Shown here: positions 28-11,433 of the stretch, piece by piece
Numbering within the stretch: position 1 is the stretch's first letter
Layout of the letters: each line of letters opens with the position of its first letter
Source: Aquificaceae bacterium
GTDB taxonomy: Bacteria; Aquificota; Aquificia; Aquificales; Aquificaceae
NCBI GenBank assembly: GCA_026983685.1
Contig: JALSTO010000174.1
Location: 1 to 11,433 of the forward strand
Direction: 5' to 3'
Length of the DNA: 11,433 bases
Program-made: the position numbers and the translations under genes
The notes under the pieces: generated by a model
What the model saw: the letters and a program-made list of their open reading frames with translations, nothing else
Database searches by the model: none
Told to the model about the DNA's origin: nothing

Positions 28-1725
28 TTACTTCACCTCCCACATAGCGGATAGCCAACCGTAGTTGAGCACTACGAAGATTATGAAGGCTGTTATGAAG
101 AGGAGGACGAGGGTAAAGGTGCCCGGAGCGGCGAAACCTGTGTGTTCTTCCTTAGCGGGAGGGGGAGGCTCCGCTATCGGTATCTGAAGGTCCTGAGGAC
201 CCTTGAGGGGACTTCCGAAGAAGACCGAGACCACGACTTGAATTATCCATATAAGGGCACCGATAACCGCAAGCAGACCACCGAGACCGAAGAGAGCCCA
301 GAAGAAGTCGGTGACAGGGTTGTAGGTGTAGGTGAAGGGACCTCCGGAGAAGGTTATGTCCCAGTGCCTTCTGGGAACTCCGAAAGCTCCGAGTATGTAC
401 ATGGACACCGCAAGGATTGCAACTCCAATACCAAAGAGCCAGGGGACAAACTTTGAGACCCCGTAGAAGGCTATCTTCTTCCTGAAGAGGAGTGGTATGA
501 GGTAGTAGGTGACGCTCATGAAGGCAAGGGCTGTTCCACCCACAACCGCTCCCTTGAAGTGCCCGGGTATTGATAGGGTGTTGTGCACTATTATGTTGGT
601 TTGCTCCATGCCGTTGACAACCCCGGTTATTCCACCTATGAAGCCGAAGATTATCATTGAGAGCATCAGTCCCGAGAAGCCCGGGTTGCCCCAGGGGGCA
701 GCTTTGAGCCACTCAAAGAGACCCTTGGTAAACCCTCTCCTCCTCTGGGCTACCTCTATTGCTGAGGGAACGGCGAAGGCGTGTATCATTGAGGCAAAGA
801 CCGCAAGGTACATAACGTAGCTCGTATTCCAGACCTTCCACACGGGGCTCACAGCGGGGTCAACGAGGAGGTGGTGGGCTGAAGCAACGTTTATGGCGAT
901 TATGTAGAGTATAAAGGCGAACCTGCTGACCTTTTCATTTATAGAGGTCCCTCCAACCGTGAGGAAAGCGAGGAGGTACCAGACTGAAACGTGGGCTGCA
1001 ACGTTTATCTGCTGGGAGGGATGCCCGAGCCCCCACCAGACAAGCTTATAGACAGCCGGGTCTATGTCAGAGATTATCCCCAGAGACCACAGGAAGGTCG
1101 GTATGTAGATGATCGCACCCGAGACTATGGTTATCACCGCTATTATGGCGGCAGCCATAAGACCATAAACGAAGAGGGGCAGTGATTGACCCGGGTTTTC
1201 CCTCCTCCATATCATGAGGTTTGAGAAGAAGACGGTAACTATTACGAGTGCTCCAACAGCGAAGAGTATCATTCCAAGGTAAAAGAGTGGGTGTGCTTTC
1301 AGGGGAGCGTAAGAGGTCATGAGGACGTCCGCGTTTCCCGTGAGTATTGTGTAGTTAACGAGTAGCCACCCAACTATTGCTAACGCAGTTCCCAGCCATC
1401 CCGCAGTCGGTGAGGACATACGCGTGTTCAGAAAGGCGGTTGATGTGAATGTGAGAGCAGCAAGTTCAAAGAATATTATCCAGAAGACAAGAGCATCAAG
1501 CCCGTGGAGGGTAAGTATCCTGTAATACCAGTCAACGGGGAGGACGTGGAAGAGTTGCCACCTCGTCAGGACGAGAAGCAAAGCAGCTATAACGGCTAAG
1601 AGGAGGGAAACGACAGCCATAACGGCGTTGACCTTGGCTATCTTTTCAGCCCTCAGGTCAACCTTGAAGCCCGTTATGTCGCAGGTTCTGAACCACTTCT
1701 CTCCACTTTCAACAGCAACAGCCAT
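28..1725 (-). CDS. coxA: Haem-copper oxidase subunit I, ba3-like, with altered active site (candidate NO reductase)
   Basis: This 565-residue protein with about 13 membrane helices aligns along its length with subunit I of ba3 (B-family) oxidases. Recognisable pieces are the low-spin haem ligand H74 (TLHG), the CuB ligand H235 (GHP), the CuB pair H284-H285 (HHLLVDP), H381 and the proximal high-spin haem ligand H389 (PGHF). Two key positions differ. The tyrosine four residues after the first CuB histidine, cross-linked in oxidases, is Q239 (HPSQQ). The second low-spin haem ligand, normally the last H of GHFH, is K391 (GHFK). The K-channel tyrosine after HPxxY also appears replaced (V246), while Y250 remains. 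GGAGGTGA lies just before the ATG. Loss of the active-site tyrosine is typical of NO-reducing branches of this superfamily, and the nos genes nearby fit that. I infer an alternative NO reductase, but an oxidase is not excluded. Confidence 0.85.
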   Translation of the reverse strand: MAVAVESGEKWFRTCDITGFKVDLRAEKIAKVNAVMAVVSLLLAVIAALLLVLTRWQLFHVLPVDWYYRILTLHGLDALVFWIIFFELAALTFTSTAFLNTRMSSPTAGWLGTALAIVGWLLVNYTILTGNADVLMTSYAPLKAHPLFYLGMILFAVGALVIVTVFFSNLMIWRRENPGQSLPLFVYGLMAAAIIAVITIVSGAIIYIPTFLWSLGIISDIDPAVYKLVWWGLGHPSQQINVAAHVSVWYLLAFLTVGGTSINEKVSRFAFILYIIAINVASAHHLLVDPAVSPVWKVWNTSYVMYLAVFASMIHAFAVPSAIEVAQRRRGFTKGLFEWLKAAPWGNPGFSGLMLSMIIFGFIGGITGVVNGMEQTNIIVHNTLSIPGHFKGAVVGGTALAFMSVTYYLIPLLFRKKIAFYGVSKFVPWLFGIGVAILAVSMYILGAFGVPRRHWDITFSGGPFTYTYNPVTDFFWALFGLGGLLAVIGALIWIIQVVVSVFFGSPLKGPQDLQIPIAEPPPPAKEEHTGFAAPGTFTLVLLFITAFIIFVVLNYGWLSAMWEVK

Positions 1726-2591: not shown

Positions 2592-2609
2592 TAAGTAGGT
2601 AATTACTTA
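2592..2609. promoter_or_regulatory. Inverted repeat upstream of the cytochrome b fusion gene
   Basis: TAAGTA and TACTTA form six-base arms around GGTAAT, and the perfect palindrome GTAATTAC (2599-2606) lies within the same stretch. It ends one base before the GGAGG ribosome site, a position where a bound protein or RNA structure could block expression. Part of it (TTACTTA) recurs directly before the ribosome site of the hemerythrin gene. A role as an operator is inferred. Confidence 0.4.
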
Positions 2610-2610
2610 T

Positions 2611-2615
2611 GGAGG
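2611..2615 (+). promoter_or_regulatory. Shine-Dalgarno site setting the cytochrome b fusion start
   Basis: GGAGG lies five bases before the ATG at 2621. The earlier in-frame ATG at 2609 overlaps this site and has no ribosome site of its own, so the protein most likely begins MDVVSVSP. Confidence 0.7.
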
Positions 2616-2620
2616 CGAAG

Positions 2621-4570
2621 ATGGATGTAGTGAGTGTGAGTCCCACCTACAGGCTCATGCAGAGGCTATCCTATATACTCAGCGGTATCTATTCTTCAAG
2701 GCTAAATCCCATCTACTACCTTGGAGCCATAACGGTGTTCCTTCTTATAGTTGACGTTCTCTCGGGTGTTTACCTTTTCCTCTTTTATAGGGTTGATCCC
2801 CAGCAGGCTTATCACTCCGTGGAAGTTATATCCTCTTCCTTTCTCGGAAGTCTGATGAGGGGTATTCACAGGTACTCTTCCGACGGGCTGATACTCTTTG
2901 CGGTTCTTCACATGCTACATATGATACTTACCGACAGGTTCAGGCTCTTCAGATGGGTAGCCTGGGTCTCTGGAGTTGGAACCCTCCTTATATTCATAGT
3001 AATAGGTATATCAGGCTACCTGCTCGTATGGGACGAAAGGGCACAGCTCACCGGTCTCCTAATGGCTAAGTTCTTTAGCATAATCCCTATATTCGGGCAT
3101 GCCCTAATGAGTGCATTCCTCGGAACAGACCTGAAGAACCTCGGGGGACTTTTCAGGATACTTCTCTTCGGTCATATAGCGGTGACGATTCTCCTTCTCT
3201 TTACCCTCTGGGTTCACGTGATGAGGATTTCAAGACCGAGGCTCTTCCCTCCAAAGTACCTTATGGTTCTGCTTACCATTTTCACGCTTGCGGTCGCCCT
3301 CATCTTCCCTGCAAGGAGCGACCCTCCCGCAAACTTAGGTAAGATACCCTTCGGCATGAGCCTTGACTGGTTCTATCTTACAGGCTTTCCTCTCTTCAAG
3401 GTCCTTCCCCTTTCCCTGAACTGGGTAGCCTTCTTGGGCTTCTTCGGGCTCCTGACGGTCTTTCCTTGGCTGATAAAGGGTAGAAGAAACCCGCCTGCGC
3501 GAGTTATAGAGGAGAAGTGTGAAGGCTGTAAGCAGTGCTTTGAGGACTGCCCTTACGAAGCCATATACATGAAGCGCGTTTCCCCCGATGAGGAGAAAGC
3601 CTTCGTTATAGAAGACAAGTGTGCGGGCTGTGGCATATGTGTTGCCTCGTGCAACTATAACGCAAATGTTATAGATACAGTCCCCTACACCGATATACTT
3701 TCCGCGGTCAGCTCCTCAGAACCGAGACTCCTCGTCTTCAGATGTCCCTTCAGTGCGGAGGTTGAAAGTTCAGAGGAGGTTATGGTCTGGACCCTTCCCT
3801 GCACGGGGGCAGTGAATGCGGTGTGGATGAGGGAGCTCCTGAAACACGCCGAAGGCGTCCTCTTGGTTACCTGTGACGGACCTGACTGTTACTTCAGAGA
3901 GGGTGTTCTCTGGACGGAGGAGAGGTTCAGGGGCGAGAGAAGACCGAGGCTACTGAAGGTTATAGACAGAGGCAGGGTCAGGATTCTGGAAAAGCCGAGT
4001 GTGGATGATGCGAGCAGAGAAGTGGAAGAATTCCTTAGAGCCCTCAGGAGCAGGAGCCTCCCTAAGGAGCTGGTGATACTGGCTAAGGACAAGGTGAACC
4101 ACCTTTTAGCACCCGTTATCCTCTTCATTCCCTTCCTGAGCTTTTACCCCCTGACTACCCACAGGATTGAGTTCTATCCGACTGACAGGTCCGTGGCGGT
4201 GCTGACCTTCAAGTACAGGTCTTCTCCCGTCAGGAAGGCAGAAGGAACCTACAGCAAGCTAAAGCACATGCAGGCTATAAAGAACATCGCCCTTGAGAGG
4301 TCTCCAATAGAGCTCACCTTCCTCGTTGACGGAAAGCCTCTCCTGAAGAAAAGGTACAACCCGAGGGGAATGCGAAGGGACTCCTCCATATACGTTTACG
4401 AGGAGTTCATACTTGATCCCGGTATTCACAGCCTTGAGCTGAGGCTTGTTGAGACAGCCCACCCGGAGAAGGTAAAAAGCTTCAGACTACAGAAGGAGCT
4501 GAAGCCTTCAGACAGCCTTGCCCTCTCCTACTCAGAAGAGAGAGGCTTCTTCGCCCTTGGAGCGGAGTGA
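2621..4570 (+). CDS. Membrane fusion: dihaem cytochrome b, 2x[4Fe-4S] ferredoxin, MvhD-like domain, C-terminal membrane helix and unknown domain
   Basis: A 649-residue protein. Residues 1-290 form a cytochrome b/b6-like core of about six helices with the histidine pairs H83/H97 and H185/H199, each 14 apart as in the bc1 family. Where that family has PEWY at the quinol site, this protein has L248-D-W-F. Residues 300-347 hold two cluster motifs, Cys300/303/306/310 and Cys334/337/340/344. Residues 370-460 resemble MvhD/FlpD, the [2Fe-2S] subunit linking hydrogenases to heterodisulfide reductase, with Cys375, 394, 418 and 423 kept and one usual cysteine missing (CPFS). A helix at about 495-511 then leads to a 138-residue domain I do not recognise. 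Counting helices puts the Fe-S parts in the cytoplasm and the last domain outside. It probably moves electrons between the quinone pool and a cytoplasmic carrier; direction and partner are unknown. Confidence 0.85.
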   Translation: MDVVSVSPTYRLMQRLSYILSGIYSSRLNPIYYLGAITVFLLIVDVLSGVYLFLFYRVDPQQAYHSVEVISSSFLGSLMRGIHRYSSDGLILFAVLHMLHMILTDRFRLFRWVAWVSGVGTLLIFIVIGISGYLLVWDERAQLTGLLMAKFFSIIPIFGHALMSAFLGTDLKNLGGLFRILLFGHIAVTILLLFTLWVHVMRISRPRLFPPKYLMVLLTIFTLAVALIFPARSDPPANLGKIPFGMSLDWFYLTGFPLFKVLPLSLNWVAFLGFFGLLTVFPWLIKGRRNPPARVIEEKCEGCKQCFEDCPYEAIYMKRVSPDEEKAFVIEDKCAGCGICVASCNYNANVIDTVPYTDILSAVSSSEPRLLVFRCPFSAEVESSEEVMVWTLPCTGAVNAVWMRELLKHAEGVLLVTCDGPDCYFREGVLWTEERFRGERRPRLLKVIDRGRVRILEKPSVDDASREVEEFLRALRSRSLPKELVILAKDKVNHLLAPVILFIPFLSFYPLTTHRIEFYPTDRSVAVLTFKYRSSPVRKAEGTYSKLKHMQAIKNIALERSPIELTFLVDGKPLLKKRYNPRGMRRDSSIYVYEEFILDPGIHSLELRLVETAHPEKVKSFRLQKELKPSDSLALSYSEERGFFALGAE

Positions 4571-4620: not shown

Positions 4621-4634
4621 AGGAGGTGAGAGAG

Positions 4635-5069
4635 ATGCTCATAGCCCAATATCTGACCGAAGAACACAGGAAGTGCGATGGCTACTATGCGGAGGCGGAG
4701 AAGGCTGTTCTCTCGGGAGAGTGGGAACGTGCAAAGGAGCTATTTGCCAAGTTCAGGGATTGCACCCTCCTTCACTTCAGGAAGGAGGAAGAGGTGCTCT
4801 TTCCAGAGTTTGAGGAAAGAACTGGTATAGTGATGGGTCCCACTCAGGTCATGAGGCACGAACACGCTCAGGCAAGGGAGCTCCTTCAGAGGCTTGAATC
4901 CGCTCTTGACAAAAAGGACAGGGATGGATTCCTTTCAGCGGGTGAGTCCCTCATGATCCTTATCCAACAGCACAACATGAAGGAAGAGCAGATACTTTAC
5001 CCCATGAGCGATCAGAACCTTGAAGGTGAAGAGATGGTTCAGAGGATGTCCGAGCTCGGAGAGGTATGA
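4635..5069 (+). CDS. Hemerythrin-like cation-binding protein
   Basis: This 144-residue soluble, all-helical protein has the hemerythrin iron-ligand pattern: H in TEEHRKCDG near the start, H-x3-E in HFRKEEEVLFPEF, H in MRHEHAQ, and H with downstream E in QQHNMKEEQ. Such proteins bind a non-haem di-iron centre. In bacteria they act in O2 or NO binding, in sensing, or in repair of iron centres damaged by NO (as with the RIC/YtfE group, which is larger). I chose the ATG at 4635, eight bases after GGAGG (4622-4626); a GTG at 4626 overlaps that site. The stop overlaps the next gene's start as ATGA, so the two are very likely co-translated. A role in handling NO is inferred from the denitrification genes nearby. 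Confidence 0.8.
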   Translation: MLIAQYLTEEHRKCDGYYAEAEKAVLSGEWERAKELFAKFRDCTLLHFRKEEEVLFPEFEERTGIVMGPTQVMRHEHAQARELLQRLESALDKKDRDGFLSAGESLMILIQQHNMKEEQILYPMSDQNLEGEEMVQRMSELGEV

Positions 5070-6292
5070 GGGGACTCCAGCTTCTCTACCTGCCACCCTT
5101 CAGCATAGTTTCCCGTTTCTTCCTGACCTCAGCCCTCTTCGGTCTCCTCGGTGCTCTTCTGGGTCTGTACGGGACAGTTGCCGACCGCTTTAGCCTCCCC
5201 GCCCTCGTTCATATCTATACCCTCGGATTTATGGCGATGACCATGTTGGGCGCCCTCTTCCAGATGCTTCCTGTCGTGGCTGGAGCGGTAATAGAGAGGA
5301 GCCTCCTCGTAGCCACATACACCCATATTTCTCTTGTTCTCGGCGTTCTTACCTTCGTTACAGGGCTTTTCTCCGGAGAGAAGTACACTCTGGTCACAGG
5401 CACATCTCTGATGTTCTTAGCCCTCGTGCCTACCGCCTCTCTGATGCTCTTCAAGCTCATGAGGATAGAATCCCACACACCTACTTCGGGAGGCATGAGG
5501 TACGCTCTGCTCTCCCTCCTTATTGGAGTCCTTCTCGGAAGCCTTGAAGTATTCAATCTGAGCGGTTATGCCAACCTCAGCTACTCATGGCTGTTGAAAG
5601 CTCACCTGACGGTAATGCTCTTTGGCTGGGTTGGCATTCTCGTAGCCTCGGTCGCCTTTCAGGTTATAGAGATGTTCTTTGTCACACCTTCCTATCCCAG
5701 AACCTACGCCCGCCTCTTCCCACCGGCGGTCCTTCTTTCAATACTCGTGGCTTCTTTAAAAGATGTCTGGCTTCTCAAGGTGCCCCTGTCCGTCCTCTTT
5801 ATATCCTTTGCCCTAATAACCTTTTCACGACTCCGGGATAGGAGAAGGAAGATTCCAGATCCCCTGATAAGCCTGTGGTACGTGAGCATGGGATTCCTTA
5901 TAGCTTCCTCACTTCTGTATCCTTTTGCTGGAGGTGGCGCCACCTTTCTCCTATTTCTCTTTACCTTCGGAAGCTTTGCCCAGAGTGTTATCTTTGCTAT
6001 GATGTACAGGATAATTCCCTTCTTAGTATGGATACACCTCTCAAACAGGGGAGTTCCCAACGCTCCCACGATGCACGAGGTGATAAACCCAAAGAGGGTA
6101 TGGGCACATTTCTACCTTCACCTCACATCTGTATTCCTGTTCTTAGTCCCATTCTTTACAGGGATAAAAGTTCTGTGGCTTTTCTGTTCCCTTGCTTACG
6201 CCGTATCCTTTGCATTTCTGTTCTTCAACTTATCCTCGGGGGTACTCCTCTACCTCAGGAAAGCAGGTTGGCAAGGTGCCTCTCCTCAATAG
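5066..6292 (+). CDS. Polytopic membrane protein, NnrS-like or haem-copper subunit I-like
   Basis: A 408-residue, very hydrophobic protein with about 12 membrane helices and no soluble domain. H49 stands in the pattern H-x3-LGF-x6-LGAxxQMLP, which recalls the helix of haem-copper proteins with a histidine, glycines and a terminal proline. Further helix histidines are H87 and H180 (KAHLTVMLFGW), with others near the C-terminus. NnrS, a 12-helix haem and copper protein that protects denitrifiers against NO stress, is the nearest family I can name, but the match is by pattern only. It is not an ordinary oxidase: I find no HPxxY or HH pair. Translation is probably coupled to the hemerythrin gene (ATGA overlap), and GGAGAGGT precedes the start. 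Its 3' end overlaps the convergent Rrf2 gene by 38 bases. Confidence 0.65.
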   Translation: MRGLQLLYLPPFSIVSRFFLTSALFGLLGALLGLYGTVADRFSLPALVHIYTLGFMAMTMLGALFQMLPVVAGAVIERSLLVATYTHISLVLGVLTFVTGLFSGEKYTLVTGTSLMFLALVPTASLMLFKLMRIESHTPTSGGMRYALLSLLIGVLLGSLEVFNLSGYANLSYSWLLKAHLTVMLFGWVGILVASVAFQVIEMFFVTPSYPRTYARLFPPAVLLSILVASLKDVWLLKVPLSVLFISFALITFSRLRDRRRKIPDPLISLWYVSMGFLIASSLLYPFAGGGATFLLFLFTFGSFAQSVIFAMMYRIIPFLVWIHLSNRGVPNAPTMHEVINPKRVWAHFYLHLTSVFLFLVPFFTGIKVLWLFCSLAYAVSFAFLFFNLSSGVLLYLRKAGWQGASPQ

Positions 6293-6689
6293 AGACGAGG
6301 TCCTGTATGGTGGTCTTCTTGAAGAAGTCTATCATCTGATGCTTGAGCTTCTCCCACCTGTGGTGAATGACACACGGGTTTGTCTCATAAACATCGCACT
6401 TGTCGGGCATGAGGGCGCAGGCTTGAAATCTGTACTCCTCACCCATGATAGATATAACGTCCCACATTGTCAGCTTTTCGGGATCAACCTTGAGAGAGAA
6501 GCCCCCTCTGGGACCTTTTACGGAGTTAAGTATGTCTCTGCGGGAGAGCTCGTGAAGTATCTTTGATAGGAAGGGCTTGGGGATATTCTGCGCCTTGGCT
6601 ATCTCCTCAGCTTTAACGAGCCTGTCCCTGTGCATTGCCAGATATGCCAGCGCAAGAAGAGCGTACCTGACTGTATCTGAGTAAATCAT
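6255..6689 (-). CDS. Rrf2-family transcription regulator with Fe-S cysteines (NsrR/IscR type)
   Basis: A 144-residue protein with the typical Rrf2 start (YSDTVRYALLALAYLA), a winged helix with the recognition segment KPFLSKILHEL and the wing VKGPRGGFSL. It has three cysteines, C91, C98 and C106, spaced Cx6C and Cx7C, with H109 two residues after the last. This matches the ligand layout of IscR/NsrR proteins, where loss or nitrosylation of the cluster changes DNA binding. With nos genes upstream, an NO- or redox-responsive regulator of this locus is the natural inference. The start at 6689 gives the family N-terminus; an in-frame TTG at 6728 would add 13 hydrophobic residues and falls on the -35 box. 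It has its own promoter, so it can be read apart from the nos operon. Confidence 0.9.
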   Translation of the reverse strand: MIYSDTVRYALLALAYLAMHRDRLVKAEEIAKAQNIPKPFLSKILHELSRRDILNSVKGPRGGFSLKVDPEKLTMWDVISIMGEEYRFQACALMPDKCDVYETNPCVIHHRWEKLKHQMIDFFKKTTIQDLVSIEERHLANLLS

Positions 6690-6699
6690 CTTAATATAG

Positions 6700-6728
6700 A
6701 TTATAAATATAAAACGTAGTTTTATCAA
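6700..6728 (-). promoter_or_regulatory. Sigma-70 promoter of the Rrf2 gene
   Basis: On the minus strand TTGATA (6728-6723) and a perfect TATAAT (6705-6700) are separated by exactly 17 bases. Transcription would begin near 6693, only about four bases before the ATG at 6689. There is no Shine-Dalgarno site, so the mRNA is probably leaderless. The -35 box begins right after the stop codon of the cytochrome c gene. Confidence 0.75.
6709..6725. promoter_or_regulatory. 17-bp palindromic operator candidate inside the Rrf2 promoter
   Basis: ATAAAAC-TAC-GTTTTAT (minus strand) has two perfect seven-base arms around a three-base centre and lies between the -35 and -10 boxes. A protein bound here would block RNA polymerase. 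Autoregulation by the Rrf2 protein is the simplest reading, by analogy with other Rrf2 regulators. Related AAACTA/GTTT bases occur before the hemerythrin gene. Confidence 0.6.
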
Positions 6729-7064
6729 CTAATTTAGGTCATTTTTTAGGTTGAGTATCCAGTCCACTATGAGCTCCGCCTCCTCCCTGCTGAGTTTCTG
6801 AGGAGGCATTGACCTATCTCCCCATCTACCGCTACTACCTTTTAGGATACTGTCTATGAGCTGTTCTCTATCTTTTGGATAGTATCTCCTGCTTATATCG
6901 TAAAAAGATGGTCCTAAGAGCTTCCTTCTCATGTCGTGACAGTAGGGACAGCCTTTTATTCCTACAAGTTCCTTTACATCAATCCGAACACTTCTATGCT
7001 CCTGTTTTTCGCAAGAGGCAAGAAGGAAAATCACCAAGGTTAGTAGCGGATATACCCTTCTCAT
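6729..7064 (-). CDS. Lipid-anchored monohaem cytochrome c, c-551/c-552 type
   Basis: A 111-residue lipoprotein. Residues 1-17 are a signal peptide ending in the lipobox LLAS-C18, and the mature domain is about 90 residues. Haem is bound by C39-P-Y-C42-H43, and M86 in the WGxxxMPP segment is the sixth ligand. GPSFYDI, the GSSGRWG stretch and the final helix VDWILNL are close in kind to Hydrogenobacter thermophilus cytochrome c-552 and Pseudomonas c-551, which donate electrons to periplasmic denitrification enzymes. The ATG at 7064 is two bases past the nosY stop, with AGGAAGGA upstream. A longer frame from 7127 would overlap nosY and bury the signal peptide, so I reject it. It probably feeds electrons to NosZ or to the CuA subunit of the altered oxidase. 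Confidence 0.9.
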   Translation of the reverse strand: MRRVYPLLTLVIFLLASCEKQEHRSVRIDVKELVGIKGCPYCHDMRRKLLGPSFYDISRRYYPKDREQLIDSILKGSSGRWGDRSMPPQKLSREEAELIVDWILNLKNDLN

Positions 7065-7065
7065 T

Positions 7066-7845
7066 TTACAGATCCTTCCTCCTGAACAGGGATACTGCCA
7101 GAAATGAAGGGAAGAAAGCCCATACAAGCATAGCCAGTATAGAAAGCGTTATTCCCAGATGGGAACCAAAGAACTTCTTGAAAACCGCTTCAGAAATACC
7201 CATAAGTGCAGCTATATCAAGATTTATAATAACGAGCAGTCTTGAGAGGTCAACAGGGTTCAGGAGGGTAAGCGCGAGAACAACCTTTTCCAGAGGATAA
7301 TCTTTAAATACATATACGACTGTAAGTATGACACCGTCGTGAAAGATAGCCATGTAAAGCCATAAGCTCACTATAAACCCAACACCTTTTACCCTGTCTC
7401 TGAAGAGAACTCCCGATAGGAAGGATAGTGAGGTAAAAACAATACTCAAGAGAATTCCAGACAGAGTGAGAAATGAAAGGAGGTGTATCGTATCGGAACG
7501 AATAGCCTTCACCATCAGAGGTAAGGCTACACCGATTATATAGATGACCGACAAGAAGGATGATACAGCCAGCAGTTTAGCAGTGAGAACTTGGTTCCTT
7601 GAGAGGGGCTGGGTTAAGAGAAATCTCATGAACTCCCGTGAGTCGTACAGATAGGTTATAGTGAAAAGGGATGAAACAAGAGGGACTATGAGGAGATTTA
7701 TGTTCAGAAGACTGATAGCAACCCTACCCATATCCTCACTCATGTAAAGGAATAGGAGGGTTCCTCCGAGGAGAATAAGCAGATACAGCCAGAGCCACTT
7801 TACCTTAGACAGGTCCTTCAGGTCATAAAGAAAGAGCTTAAGCAA
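7066..7845 (-). CDS. nosY: NosY, ABC-2 type permease for NosZ copper-site maturation
   Basis: A 259-residue protein with six membrane helices and the cytoplasmic stretch SREFMRFLLTQPLSRNQVLTAKL, the coupling segment seen in NosY/ABC-2 permeases. It is the membrane half of the NosFY transporter, which works with NosD and NosL in assembling the CuZ centre of nitrous oxide reductase. It follows nosF directly and overlaps it by eight bases. I take TTG at 7845 as the start, six bases after GGAGG. The in-frame TTG at 7851 abuts the ribosome site and cannot be used. The family name rests on the gene order nosD-nosF-nosY as much as on the sequence, which is typically variable. Confidence 0.88.
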   Translation of the reverse strand: MLKLFLYDLKDLSKVKWLWLYLLILLGGTLLFLYMSEDMGRVAISLLNINLLIVPLVSSLFTITYLYDSREFMRFLLTQPLSRNQVLTAKLLAVSSFLSVIYIIGVALPLMVKAIRSDTIHLLSFLTLSGILLSIVFTSLSFLSGVLFRDRVKGVGFIVSLWLYMAIFHDGVILTVVYVFKDYPLEKVVLALTLLNPVDLSRLLVIINLDIAALMGISEAVFKKFFGSHLGITLSILAMLVWAFFPSFLAVSLFRRKDL

Positions 7846-8557
7846 GCTCAACCTCCAGAAGGGAGGCGATAGCCTCCTCTAAGGTCTCAGAATCCGTTTT
7901 CTCTTTGAGACTGCCAACGGTTGAGTCAATTTTTATCCTTCCGTCTATAAGCAAAACCACCCTATCCGCCAGTTCCTCTACCTCTGACATTATATGAGAG
8001 GTAAGTACAACAGTCCTTTTCCTTTCCTTCCAAAGCAGGATCTCTCTCTTTAGCCTTGTACTGGCAACTGGATCGAGCCCAACAGTCGGCTCATCAAGTA
8101 TGAGAACAGCAGGTTCAAAGGCAAGGGCGAGGATAGCGCTGACCTTCTGTCTTGTTCCACCGGAGAGAGAGCCTAAAGGTCTATCCATAAAGTCCTCAAC
8201 CTTAAAAAGCTTCGTTAGCCTGTGCACCTCCGCCTCAGGATGGATACCCCTTATATCGGATATCAGCTTAAAGAGGTCCCTCGCAGTCAGATTATCCGGA
8301 AAGCTTGCCTCTTGAGGCATATACCCTATGTCCGCTCTATAGCTATATCCTTCCTTCACATTCTTGCCGTTCACATACACCTCGCCATCGTCTGGGACAA
8401 CGAGTCCGAGGATACACTTCAGCAGGGTTGTCTTACCGGATGCGTTAGGACCGAGTATAGCTGTTACCTCTCCAGCCCTTACCGATAGGTCTATCTTGTT
8501 GAGAACTCTAAGTCTTCCATAGCTCTTGCTGAGGTTTTCTATTCTTATCGTTTCCAC
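7838..8557 (-). CDS. nosF: NosF, ABC transporter ATPase of the NosDFY complex
   Basis: A 239-residue ATPase with all ABC motifs intact: Walker A at 36-44 (GPNASGKTT), Q-loop Q82 (MPQE), signature LSGGT at 131-135, Walker B and catalytic glutamate in VLILDEP (151-157), the D-loop in GLDP, and switch H188. It powers NosY in the cytoplasm for maturation of the copper centre of nitrous oxide reductase. The start is GTG at 8557, seven bases after GGAGG; the gene overlaps nosD by 13 bases and nosY by eight. Nothing looks damaged. The ATPase class is certain; the NosF name comes from its place between nosD and nosY. Confidence 0.93.
   Translation of the reverse strand: METIRIENLSKSYGRLRVLNKIDLSVRAGEVTAILGPNASGKTTLLKCILGLVVPDDGEVYVNGKNVKEGYSYRADIGYMPQEASFPDNLTARDLFKLISDIRGIHPEAEVHRLTKLFKVEDFMDRPLGSLSGGTRQKVSAILALAFEPAVLILDEPTVGLDPVASTRLKREILLWKERKRTVVLTSHIMSEVEELADRVVLLIDGRIKIDSTVGSLKEKTDSETLEEAIASLLEVELA
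7852..7856 (-). promoter_or_regulatory. Shine-Dalgarno site setting the nosY TTG start
   Basis: GGAGG on the minus strand lies six bases before TTG at 7845 and directly against the in-frame TTG at 7851. It places the start inside the last codons of nosF, which suggests translational coupling. Confidence 0.65.
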
Positions 8558-9807
8558 CTGACAGCCTCCATGAGGGGTTTTCTATCTGAAATAGAGATTG
8601 ACGTGACAACAGGGAACGTATCCTCAACTAAGTTCAGTATTTTAACGAAGAAGCTCTTTATGAGTACGGAAGCTGCAGGATTGTTTTCAACGATGTAAGA
8701 GAATAGCTTTACAGGTCTGTAGGGTACATCGCCATAGCCATCACCGTTCAGGTCATACCCCCTGTAGGCACTCCAGTAATTCTCTTTTATAAGATTAGGA
8801 TTCTGGGTACTATTAGTAGATACATCAAAGGTGTTAGACAGGAAGTTATTTAGCTTTATCACATTGTTCATTGAATTAGCCCATATACGGAGCGCCCAGC
8901 CATTTTCCACAAAGTCGTTTTCTTTAATTGTGATTCTTTGACACTCATCCATAAGCACACCTGCTGTATTCTTGTAGAAGATGTTGTTCTCTACTATACT
9001 GTCATCTATCGCTTTAAGGAGGAGACCGTAGGAAGCCCCTCCCCAGTTGAACTCAAACCTGTTCCCCTTCATAATCACCTTCTTGGTGTACATGACCGCG
9101 ACACCAACTCCATTCCTGCGAAAGATATTGTCTCTATAAGTATCCCTGTGAGAAAACATGAAGTGGAGTCCGTATCTCCAATTATTCTCGGATACGTTCC
9201 CTTCTATAGTGCTATCTTCAACGAACTCAAAGTATATACCGTCCCTGTGCCCGGTTATGTAGTTCCCTCTAAGGAGTATCCTCTTTGAATGCCATATGTG
9301 TATCCCGTTGCCCGAATATGCCTCCCCTACCCGAAAGGGTCCTTCAATCCTGTTGCCTTCAACTCTGCATTCCTCAACTCCAGCAAGGTATATAGCCCAG
9401 AAGTTGTCCTTAAGTATGTTTTTCCTGATAACACAGCCTTTGACATTCTCAACCTTTATACCTGCGATGTCCTCTATATCGCTCCTACCGGAGTTGGCTA
9501 TCCTGAAACCTTCAACAACGACGTTATCAGCAGTTATCCTGAGAACCTCGTACTTTCCCCGGCCATCAAGCAGAGGATAGTCTTCCCCCACAAGACTCAA
9601 GCTTTTGTTCACAACCAGCGTACCTTCCGCATAAGTTCCTCCTTTTACCCTGATGGTGTCCCCCGCTTTTGCCACCCTGAGGGCTTCCTTTATAGTTTTA
9701 AAACTGCAAGAGGGACATACATATAGCTCTTTAGAATGGGCTGTAAGATTTGTGATGAAGAGGAGGACAAACCCTAAAAAGAGCCCTTTCCAATTCTCTC
9801 CTTCCAT
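8545..9807 (-). CDS. nosD: NosD, periplasmic beta-helix protein for NosZ copper-site assembly
   Basis: A 420-residue exported protein. Residues 1-24 are a signal peptide (short charged start, then LFLGFVLLFITNLTAHS). The body is a right-handed beta-helix with carbohydrate-binding/sugar-hydrolase (CASH) type repeats, visible as recurring units such as V-x-G-N-x-I, I-x-x-N and G-I-Y/H-I about every 22-24 residues from about 75 to 330. The segment ENYWSAYRGYDLNGDGYGDVPY is a NosD hallmark. NosD delivers copper or sulfur for CuZ together with NosFY. An ATG at 9807, four bases after GGAG, lies within the last codons of nosL (34-base overlap). CPSC at about residues 31-34, right after the signal peptide, is a possible metal or disulfide site. 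Confidence 0.93.
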   Translation of the reverse strand: MEGENWKGLFLGFVLLFITNLTAHSKELYVCPSCSFKTIKEALRVAKAGDTIRVKGGTYAEGTLVVNKSLSLVGEDYPLLDGRGKYEVLRITADNVVVEGFRIANSGRSDIEDIAGIKVENVKGCVIRKNILKDNFWAIYLAGVEECRVEGNRIEGPFRVGEAYSGNGIHIWHSKRILLRGNYITGHRDGIYFEFVEDSTIEGNVSENNWRYGLHFMFSHRDTYRDNIFRRNGVGVAVMYTKKVIMKGNRFEFNWGGASYGLLLKAIDDSIVENNIFYKNTAGVLMDECQRITIKENDFVENGWALRIWANSMNNVIKLNNFLSNTFDVSTNSTQNPNLIKENYWSAYRGYDLNGDGYGDVPYRPVKLFSYIVENNPAASVLIKSFFVKILNLVEDTFPVVTSISISDRKPLMEAVRWKR

Positions 9808-10244
9808 TTTTCTCCAACATAGCTCAGAACGTCTTCCCAGTTTAGAACCTTACCTCCAAAGTTCCTCACGGCCTCTTTCAGTTTTTCTTCGTCCGCATAA
9901 GCGGATATGTTCAAACCCATAGGGCTCCTTATCTTCTCACTCACGAGAAACTTCACTCTTTCAACAGACACAAGTTCCCTTGAATAGAAATCGGAGACCC
10001 AGAGGGCTGAGATCTCCTCCCTTTTGACCTTTCCACTCAGGATGAACGCGGCAAGACACTCTATGGAGTCAAACTTGTAAACCTTACCTTTCTTCGTTTT
10101 CAGCTCCGCAGAGAAACCTGCATCCGCTATTATCATTCTGCAGAAAGAACAGGAGTCTTTTCCGTACTCTATAGGCTCAGGAGATACAACCTTTTCACAG
10201 GAAAGTATCAGTAAGGGGATCAGCAGGAGGATTAAATACCTCAT
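9774..10244 (-). CDS. nosL: NosL, copper-chaperone lipoprotein
   Basis: A 156-residue lipoprotein with a signal peptide ending LLILS-C16. It has the copper-site motif C32-S-F-C35-R-M37 and the downstream conserved segment SPMGLNISAYAD. NosL binds Cu(I) and supplies it for NosZ maturation on the outer face of the membrane. YKFDSIECLAAF between the two motifs is also typical of the family. The start ATG overlaps the stop of the upstream membrane protein as ATGA. The C-terminal tail is charged and extends into nosD by 34 bases. Family assignment is firm. The only slight departure is R36 where glycine is common in the motif. Confidence 0.93.
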   Translation of the reverse strand: MRYLILLLIPLLILSCEKVVSPEPIEYGKDSCSFCRMIIADAGFSAELKTKKGKVYKFDSIECLAAFILSGKVKREEISALWVSDFYSRELVSVERVKFLVSEKIRSPMGLNISAYADEEKLKEAVRNFGGKVLNWEDVLSYVGEKWKERIGKGSF

Positions 10245-10840
10245 GCCTCCGCTGTCCTGTAAGAGGGCTGAGAACTGAACTTATCCACGATGAACGCTAT
10301 TATACCCATGAGCAAGGACAGCAATGCGATGTAAGTTCCGATAACGGGCCAGGAGCAGGCCTTCATGTTCAGTAAGGTCTTACATCCTATCAGGGGAGGC
10401 TGATAGGCAAGTCCAGGTATCCTTATAGGGGCATTGGGGTCAAGGTTGTGACCGTACTTGTACTCCCACCACCAGAAGTCCGCTATACCTATAAGACCGA
10501 ATACTATAAAGAGGATGACCCATGTTTTCAGGACCCACTTCTTGCCGGTTATCGCCCCAAAGAGACCGAAGAGTATGAAGAAGACGAAAACGACAGGCAT
10601 TATCTTCAGCTCGGGAACCTTCTCAGGCTCTATAAGAGCCATACCTATGTAGTGGTTCAGGAGGTTTATGTTGTAAAGGTCATGGGGCTTCTCCCCAGTT
10701 ATGTTGTTGACCCATATTAGCATACCCAAGCCTTCGGGATACTGGGGAGCGGTGAGGGTTATCTTCCAAAGGGGTACAAAGAAGACACCTATAAGAATGA
10801 GAGAAGCGAGGGCAAGAAGCCCCCGGGAAATGAGGTTCAT
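10241..10840 (-). CDS. NosB-like membrane protein of clade II-type nos clusters
   Basis: A 199-residue protein with four predicted membrane helices (about 7-27, 80-98, 106-126 and 165-187). It has a loop of about 50 residues after the first helix and a second loop holding DFWWWEYKYGHNLDPNAPI and PPLIGCKTLLNMKACSWP. A small membrane protein directly after nosZ, named nosB in Wolinella, is a mark of clade II nos clusters, and this gene has that place and layout. Its role is not established in the literature I know. The tryptophans, tyrosines, H131 and two cysteines in the loop could bind a cofactor, but that is a guess. ATG at 10840 has GGAGGTG upstream, 12 bases after nosZ, and the gene overlaps nosL by ATGA. 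Confidence 0.75.
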   Translation of the reverse strand: MNLISRGLLALASLILIGVFFVPLWKITLTAPQYPEGLGMLIWVNNITGEKPHDLYNINLLNHYIGMALIEPEKVPELKIMPVVFVFFILFGLFGAITGKKWVLKTWVILFIVFGLIGIADFWWWEYKYGHNLDPNAPIRIPGLAYQPPLIGCKTLLNMKACSWPVIGTYIALLSLLMGIIAFIVDKFSSQPSYRTAEA

Positions 10841-10852
10841 ATCACCACCTCC

Positions 10853-11433
10853 TCAGTCCGCACACCTCTTCTTATTGCCGGTCCACCAGCAGGTTTTAAC
10901 CTTGACGTTCCTCGGGGAAACCCTCACGTAACCCTGCATCTCCTGGTGAAGTGCTGAGCAGAAGTCCGTGCAGTAGAAGGGGTACACCCCGGGTTTTTCG
11001 GGCTTCCACTTTATGGTAAGGGTCTCACCGGGCATGATGAGTATGTTTGGAACATCCGCACCGAACATGGCGAAGCCATGGGGTATGTCCCAATCCTGCT
11101 CTATGTTCGTAACGTGGAAATAAACGGTATCACCTACCTTTATACCTTCTATGTTATCGGGTGTGAAGTGAGATCTGATGGCACTCATATATATGTGAAC
11201 TTCCCTACCTTTCCTCACAACGCCTTTTCTAATAGCCTCATCCTCTGACTTAACAGCGTAGGGGTGTTTGTTCTTCCCAAGCTCATAGATCTTCTTCTGA
11301 TGCTTTGTTACCAAATTAGCAGGTATCATCTGGGCGTAGTGAGGTTCTCCGTGGGTCGGGAAGTCAAGTAGCATCTTCATTTTATCACCAGAGATATCTA
11401 TCAGCTGAGCTGCATGGGGAAGTTCAGGTCCTG
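10853..11433 (-). CDS. nosZ: NosZ, nitrous oxide reductase, C-terminal part (partial)
   Basis: The last 192 residues of nitrous oxide reductase, which reduces N2O to N2 in the periplasm; the frame stays open to the window edge. Upstream of the internal ATG at 11380 it reads PELPHAAQLIDISGDK, a conserved NosZ segment, so 11380 is not a start. GEPHYAQMI follows. The C-terminal cupredoxin domain carries the CuA site: H in DIPHGF and the loop C-T-D-F-C-S-A-L-H-Q-E-M (10937-10972). This loop, with D where Pseudomonas-type enzymes have W, and the NosB-like gene next to it point to clade II. The CuZ histidines lie outside the window. After the usual end (QGYVRVSP) is an extra tail, NVKVKTCWWTGNKKRCAD, with two cysteines. 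Confidence 0.95.
   Translation of the reverse strand, partial: GPELPHAAQLIDISGDKMKMLLDFPTHGEPHYAQMIPANLVTKHQKKIYELGKNKHPYAVKSEDEAIRKGVVRKGREVHIYMSAIRSHFTPDNIEGIKVGDTVYFHVTNIEQDWDIPHGFAMFGADVPNILIMPGETLTIKWKPEKPGVYPFYCTDFCSALHQEMQGYVRVSPRNVKVKTCWWTGNKKRCAD

Follow-up and report, generated by a model that had tools for sequence, protein, structure and literature searches.

A subunit I gene at one end of an 11,433-nucleotide contig from an Aquificaceae bacterium (the whole stretch, called the window below) resembles that of the ba3 oxygen reductases, and departs from it at two of the residues on which those enzymes depend. The locus thus raises the question of what the enzyme reduces, and of what holds its low-spin haem. 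A first-pass annotation of the window, aligned by eye, had read the cross-linked active-site tyrosine as glutamine and the second histidine of the GHFH motif as lysine, and had put the enzyme forward as a missing NO reductase. The features of the window are collected in Table 1.

Table 1. Features of the window and ligand positions of subunit I
Feature	Position	Strand	Remarks
eNOR subunit I (by sequence)	28–1725	−	565-aa ORF; PF00115, E 3.3e-59; relatives up to 90% identity (protein search)
Q239	1009–1011	−	CAG; replaces cross-linked active-site tyrosine; 444/444 eNOR-type rows
K391	553–555	−	AAG; replaces helix-X histidine ligand of low-spin haem; K 191, H 252, unreadable 1 (444 rows)
H74	1504–1506	−	Second low-spin haem ligand, kept; H in 320/324 rows
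H284–H285	871–876	−	CuB ligands, kept; script-read codons and 80-locus alignment
H235	1021–1023	−	CAT; third CuB ligand, kept
H389	559–561	−	CAC; high-spin haem ligand, kept
eNOR subunit II, CuA cupredoxin	1737–2273	−	H124, C159, C163, H167, M170 (listed ORF numbering)
Protein with cytochrome b6-like N-terminus, 2x[4Fe-4S] and FlpD-like part	2609–4570	+	eNOR-associated
Hemerythrin-domain protein	4626–5069	+	PF01814
Hydrophobic 408-aa protein	5066–6292	+	Without Pfam or NCBIfam match
Rrf2-family regulator	6255–6728	−	Profile matches
nos cluster	6729–11431	−	Small cytochrome c, NosY-like, NosF-like, NosD, NosL, 199-aa ORF, NosZ C-terminal part
Overlap with contig C44 of the same genome (4244–4397)	1–154		99.35% over 154 bases; both contig ends

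The ligand codons of the window subunit I were read by script, and the reading by eye was borne out at every site: both replacements are real, and H235, H284, H285 and H389 are kept. HMMER alignment to the solved Thermus ba3 chains pairs the window motif GHPSQQ with Thermus GHPIVY (taken from the second chain, the first being a mutant) and PGHFK with PGHFH; we take Q239 and K391 to correspond to Y237 and H386 in Thermus numbering, as the alignment pairs these sites. Among the best 120 homologues listed plus the window, glutamine is found in 121/121 and lysine in 114/121, with histidine in the other seven. In 80 loci taken from genome contigs plus the window, glutamine is again universal (81/81), while site 391 is lysine in 54, histidine in 26 and unreadable in one. 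Since both states recur across homologues and loci, neither is a sequencing slip. A frameshift or assembly error at K391 was considered and ruled out, given the presence of lysine in 191 rows of the full alignment.

The glutamine has a precedent. According to the accessible part of one article (PMC8756737), a conserved glutamine at the tyrosine site is diagnostic of eNOR, a family traced there to Hemp & Gennis (2008) that also has a cupredoxin subunit II. In our alignment site 239 is glutamine in 444/444 eNOR-type rows, a count that keeps near-copies and a few sequences present as both protein and locus, and it is glutamine in 120/120 listed relatives of a Thermus member and 120/120 listed relatives of a Gemmatimonadota member. 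A CuA cupredoxin subunit II adjoins subunit I in the window, and its CuA ligands are present, as they are in 80/80 rows for which K or H was read at site 391, the window included. In a phylogenetic tree the glutamine rows are split from seven Tyr-type ba3 outgroup rows with an SH-aLRT of 100; on it, Gln-type sequences of Thermus, Thermomicrobium and Defluviimonas stand in for the reference eNORs of Rhodothermus marinus, Natronomonas and SURF MAG 42. Three homologue searches, each with 120 rows listed and most rows nameless, show no row named Rhodothermus. On these sequence features we assign the window enzyme to eNOR, a known but little-studied family whose biochemistry has reportedly been treated by Murali et al. 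in 2024. As the family and its diagnostic were already known, the exchange of tyrosine for glutamine is not novel.

The ba3 oxygen reductases (Thermus 1ehk; 7deg; L003 from the same genome) are akin to the window enzyme in their CuB and high-spin haem ligands and in CuA, but they keep the tyrosine and GHFH where the window has Q and K, and the HPxxY tyrosine is absent from the window subunit I. As far as the available part of a second article goes (PMC3475470), the qCuANOR of Bacillus has asparagine at the tyrosine site, and some NO reductases have aspartate in place of one CuB/FeB histidine. Like the window enzyme, qCuANOR (bNOR/sNOR type, Bacillus azotoformans) is a CuA-containing, ba3-like NO reductase of denitrifiers, but it has Asn rather than Gln. 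The aspartate we take to be the rule for gNOR, whereas the window keeps H235, H284 and H285. The cNOR enzymes (NorCB, PDB 3o0r) are likely to carry out the same reaction, but have a c-type cytochrome subunit in place of the CuA subunit and are only distantly related in subunit I; a NorB-type subunit with a cytochrome c subunit or quinol fusion (cNOR/qNOR) is absent from the window, which has the CuA subunit II. Searching the PDB by sequence returned no solved structure of the eNOR family: there were 19 matches, all named cytochrome c oxidase and none above 179 bits. The eNOR family itself shares with the window the glutamine, the CuA cupredoxin subunit and the ba3-like subunit I, and many of its members, like the window, have lysine for the low-spin haem histidine.

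Y250, S312, H315 and E324, which by analogy with ba3 enzymes would belong to a putative proton channel, are invariant in eNOR (92/92 rows). R452, presumably interacting with a haem propionate, is likewise present in 92/92 rows, and R453 in 86/92, with lysine in the remainder. We note that residue 315 (window 781–783) is histidine in 92/92 eNOR rows and threonine in 7/7 ba3 rows, where we take the threonine to be part of the proton channel; the invariant histidine could belong to an altered channel.

The neighbouring genes are nir and nos genes. The nos genes that the first-pass annotation saw in the window are real: NosD scores above its NCBIfam cut-off and NosL above its Pfam cut-off, and NosZ is present as its C-terminal piece. 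NosY and NosF are named from ABC-transporter domains and gene order, and the match of the small cytochrome c is below the Pfam cut-off. Only 27 bases of the window lie beyond the eNOR stop codon, but the overlapping contig C44 extends the gene run with an SCO-type protein, NirS (cytochrome cd1, matching 1bl9 with E 2e-186), and a cytochrome c plus cd1-like protein which we take to be NirN-like. Four related loci (L129, L130, L132 and L134) have the same order as the window and C44 together, and after it come genes for a radical SAM protein and another cd1-like protein; Pfam scans cover the members of L129 and L130, and the others were recognised by similar N-termini and cd1 matches. In L129, L130 and L132 the run reaches what we take to be the start of a uroporphyrinogen methyltransferase gene. 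At locus L131 a single stretch of 19.5 kb takes in nosZ, nos accessory genes, nirS and an eNOR that is 76% identical; in Thermus, some 3.6 kb separate eNOR from nirS, which is on the opposite strand. Contamination as the source of the eNOR gene was ruled out, as the same gene order is found in close relatives.

The idea of a missing NO reductase did not survive a search of the rest of the genome (1.48 Mb in 338 contigs, 84.6% complete). Five PF00115 matches were found, comprising two proteins that we read as aa3-like, one ba3-like subunit I that carries HPVVY and GHFH, the window gene, and NorB. The last is on contig C126 with NorC upstream, and matches the solved cNOR chain 3o0r with E 3.4e-89. 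The first-pass statement that there is no classic NorBC is therefore correct for the window and wrong for the genome, and the window enzyme is ruled out as the missing enzyme here, although the idea may hold for some other genomes of the genus.

We then looked at the occurrence of eNOR across 136 Aquificota genomes, using a threshold of E<=1e-100. It is found in 20 of these, from 3 of 30 genera. All 20 have a match to the cd1 domain (PF02239), 17 of them at NirS strength (E<1e-100), in a search that covered the 20 eNOR genomes only, without a control from eNOR-free genomes. In 14/20 eNOR and the cd1 gene share a contig and a strand, with the cd1 gene 3' of eNOR (in G015 it is truncated where the contig ends); in the remaining 6/20 it is on another contig, one of these being the window genome with its C44 overlap. 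No NirK match over the cut-off was found in the 20 genomes. A NosZ match (E<=1e-40) is present in 14/20 eNOR genomes and 24/116 others (Fisher p 2.6e-5, ignoring kinship), and nine of the 14 matches are above the curated cut-off; the NosZ of G020 is split and that of the window genome is cut. Six of the 20 have no NosZ match, including two genomes that are 99% complete. In 11 genomes from other phyla, NosZ is found in 6/6 with Lys-type eNOR (including one with an unreadable codon, and one with NosZ split over two frames) and in 3/5 with His-type eNOR.

NorB/qNOR matches (E<=1e-40) are about as frequent in eNOR genomes (10/20) as in others (43/116, p 0.32), so as a rule eNOR neither replaces nor follows NorB. 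Seven Aquificota genomes combine a NosZ match with no NorB/qNOR match, and five of these have eNOR (G010, G014, G015, G018 and G020, 89–99% complete); in G014 and G018 the NosZ match is full-length yet under the curated cut-off, and G018 is 99% complete. We note that G008, G014 and G018 all encode full-length NosZ-like proteins of 593–598 residues scoring about 500 bits, against a Sec-type cut-off of 625; these are possibly divergent NosZ proteins.

The gene context supports NO reduction well, and the window enzyme is very probably a NO reductase; that it acts as one in vivo we regard as very likely. Of the alternative NO reductase groups between which the first-pass annotation did not choose, the glutamine and the nir gene run point to eNOR. 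The nirS gene lies directly downstream, and its product would supply the NO that eNOR, a B-family enzyme related to ba3, consumes. We infer that the CuA centre of subunit II is the entry point for electrons, which would pass to a low-spin haem held by H74 and K391, then to the high-spin haem (H389) and CuB (H235, H284 and H285), where two NO would be joined to give N2O; Q239 stands where O2 reduction needs the tyrosine. The N2O would in turn be reduced by the adjacent NosZ system. Taken as a whole, from NirS-made NO to CuA, the H74/K391 haem and the active site, we consider this account likely.

Some NO reductases are able to reduce O2, and kinship with the ba3 oxidases would allow the enzyme to be an O2 reductase, or to reduce both O2 and NO, in spite of the missing cross-linked tyrosine. 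Against this, two aa3-like oxidases and a ba3-like one with Tyr and GHFH are already encoded in the genome, and the neighbours of the window gene are nir and nos genes; we judge this reading very improbable. The counter-example named in the first-pass annotation, an O2-reducing ba3 enzyme with both Q and K, was not seen among the seven Tyr-type ba3 rows examined, all of which have His391. That the enzyme removes NO as a toxin rather than respiring it is a less remote idea: NorCB in the same genome and the hemerythrin gene close by would fit, but nirS in the same gene run argues for respiration, as do the five genomes in which eNOR is the only NO reductase match beside a NosZ match, and we consider it unlikely. 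Two missing canonical residues might also suggest a decayed, non-functional oxidase copy, to which the intact full-length ORF and its deep conservation across phyla leave hardly any probability.

With the glutamine already known, the point of interest is the recurrent lysine. At site 391 the eNOR-type rows hold lysine, histidine (252 rows) and a single unreadable codon (AAN), and no other residue. Lysine codons in the loci are AAA/AAG in 52 of 53, the other being read out of register (TTT). Two bases must change to turn a His codon (CAC/CAT) into a Lys codon (AAA/AAG); neither Asn nor Gln was seen. We reduced 331 rows to 99 by dropping fragments below 495 residues, the unreadable-codon row and near-copies (>=80% identity), and built a tree with the site-391 column excluded, rooted on the seven Tyr-type ba3 rows. 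On this tree lysine needs four changes, of which well-supported branches force at least three. One clade (SH-aLRT 100) comprises all 30 representatives of the window's type, from Aquificota, from Bacteroidota (Kapaibacterium among them) and from relatives of rows that bear the name Nitrospirae, while Thermus, P0150 and P0160 are lysine rows amid histidine rows. The same scatter appears in a more careful tree of 42 rows, picked after inspection of the 99-row tree, on which a single origin of lysine is rejected (AU p=4.5e-6, LG+G4). As the outgroup has histidine, gains of lysine are likeliest, with some losses possible. The exchange of histidine and lysine appears to have been made several times in evolution. 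The first-pass annotation had called the lysine strange; the substitution stands, but by its distribution it reads as a conserved and recurrent state of the family and no one-off oddity.

The partner ligand H74 is almost as constant. Its exceptions among 324 rows are two gaps, a 431-residue fragment (P0137, Glu, taken as an alignment artefact), and P0136, a Thermus-like eNOR that has K391 together with Gln at site 74 and therefore neither of the usual low-spin haem histidines; the lysine is thus not always paired with histidine. Apart from 391, fourteen columns (G392 and W429 among them) are candidates for changing with the lysine. A pair test on eleven columns identified no site that changes with it, three independent pairs placing significance out of reach.

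Haem-copper enzymes otherwise hold their low-spin haem with two histidines, and we know of no His/Lys ligation elsewhere in the superfamily. A search of titles and the beginnings of abstracts, with the family's main biochemical paper outside its scope, found nothing on a lysine haem ligand in eNOR; in the accessible part of one paper located, the passage on lysine concerns a proton pathway rather than a haem ligand. Several features favour K391 as the axial ligand, the invariant R452 among them. Retention of H74 and of the CuA ligands makes a His/Lys haem likelier than loss of the haem; and the site alternates between two residues that both bind metal, whereas a site without haem should drift, so that histidine and lysine presumably both hold the iron. 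On balance we favour coordination by K391, with some reserve. It is also conceivable that the enzyme is an eNOR in which K391 is not bound, the haem being five-coordinate or having another ligand and the lysine serving proton transfer or charge balance. The want of a solved family structure in the PDB leaves room for this, and P0136 indicates that H74 is changeable too; but a free site would not be expected to hold only His or Lys in 443 readable rows, nor to show the recurrent change seen on the tree, and we think an unbound K391 rather doubtful.

A second feature of the eNOR loci is the protein encoded divergently from eNOR in the window, which combines two [4Fe-4S] motifs with a cytochrome b6-like and a FlpD-like part. 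Its relatives occur in 75/83 eNOR loci (22/28 of the His-type), and 72/75 have both iron–sulphur motifs. Their genes lie upstream of eNOR and are read divergently from it in the Aquificota loci and in several from Gemmatimonadota, and lie 3' of an SCO gene in the Bacteroidota loci displayed. SCO matches are found in 57/83 loci, yet in only 5/28 of the His-type. Within the 136 Aquificota genomes the protein occurs in 21, namely the 20 with eNOR and G027, in which a 75%-identical eNOR gene is truncated by the end of its contig. This tight association suggests a dedicated electron donor, with the protein feeding electrons to eNOR. A full-text literature search, in the portions of the sources available, found no description of such a protein with eNOR. 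We tentatively propose, though with less than even confidence in the combination, that a His/Lys low-spin haem was reached independently three or four times in eNOR to tune its potential, and that eNOR forms a unit with the cytochrome b/2x[4Fe-4S] input protein (and SCO in many lineages) that would draw on a low-potential donor to reduce the NO coming from NirS.

Where the sources name relatives of eNOR, the name is cytochrome c oxidase; the capacity to reduce NO can therefore go unnoticed in Aquificota, Bacteroidota and Nitrospirota. The recurrent exchange of histidine and lysine is also a natural experiment on the bis-histidine rule for the low-spin haem.

Some minor observations concern individual loci. 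The hydrophobic 408-residue protein adjoins the hemerythrin gene and is matched in 6/10 Aquificota eNOR loci. Two eNOR genes, at L097 and L101 (genomes G036 and G045), were flagged for in-frame TGA codons within the stretch that was matched. At L131, whose host belongs to the same family as that of the window, a second COX1-like protein of 425 residues (P0361, 10948–12225) has its start within the final part of the gene for eNOR subunit I, and by eye lacks the CuB His-His pair.
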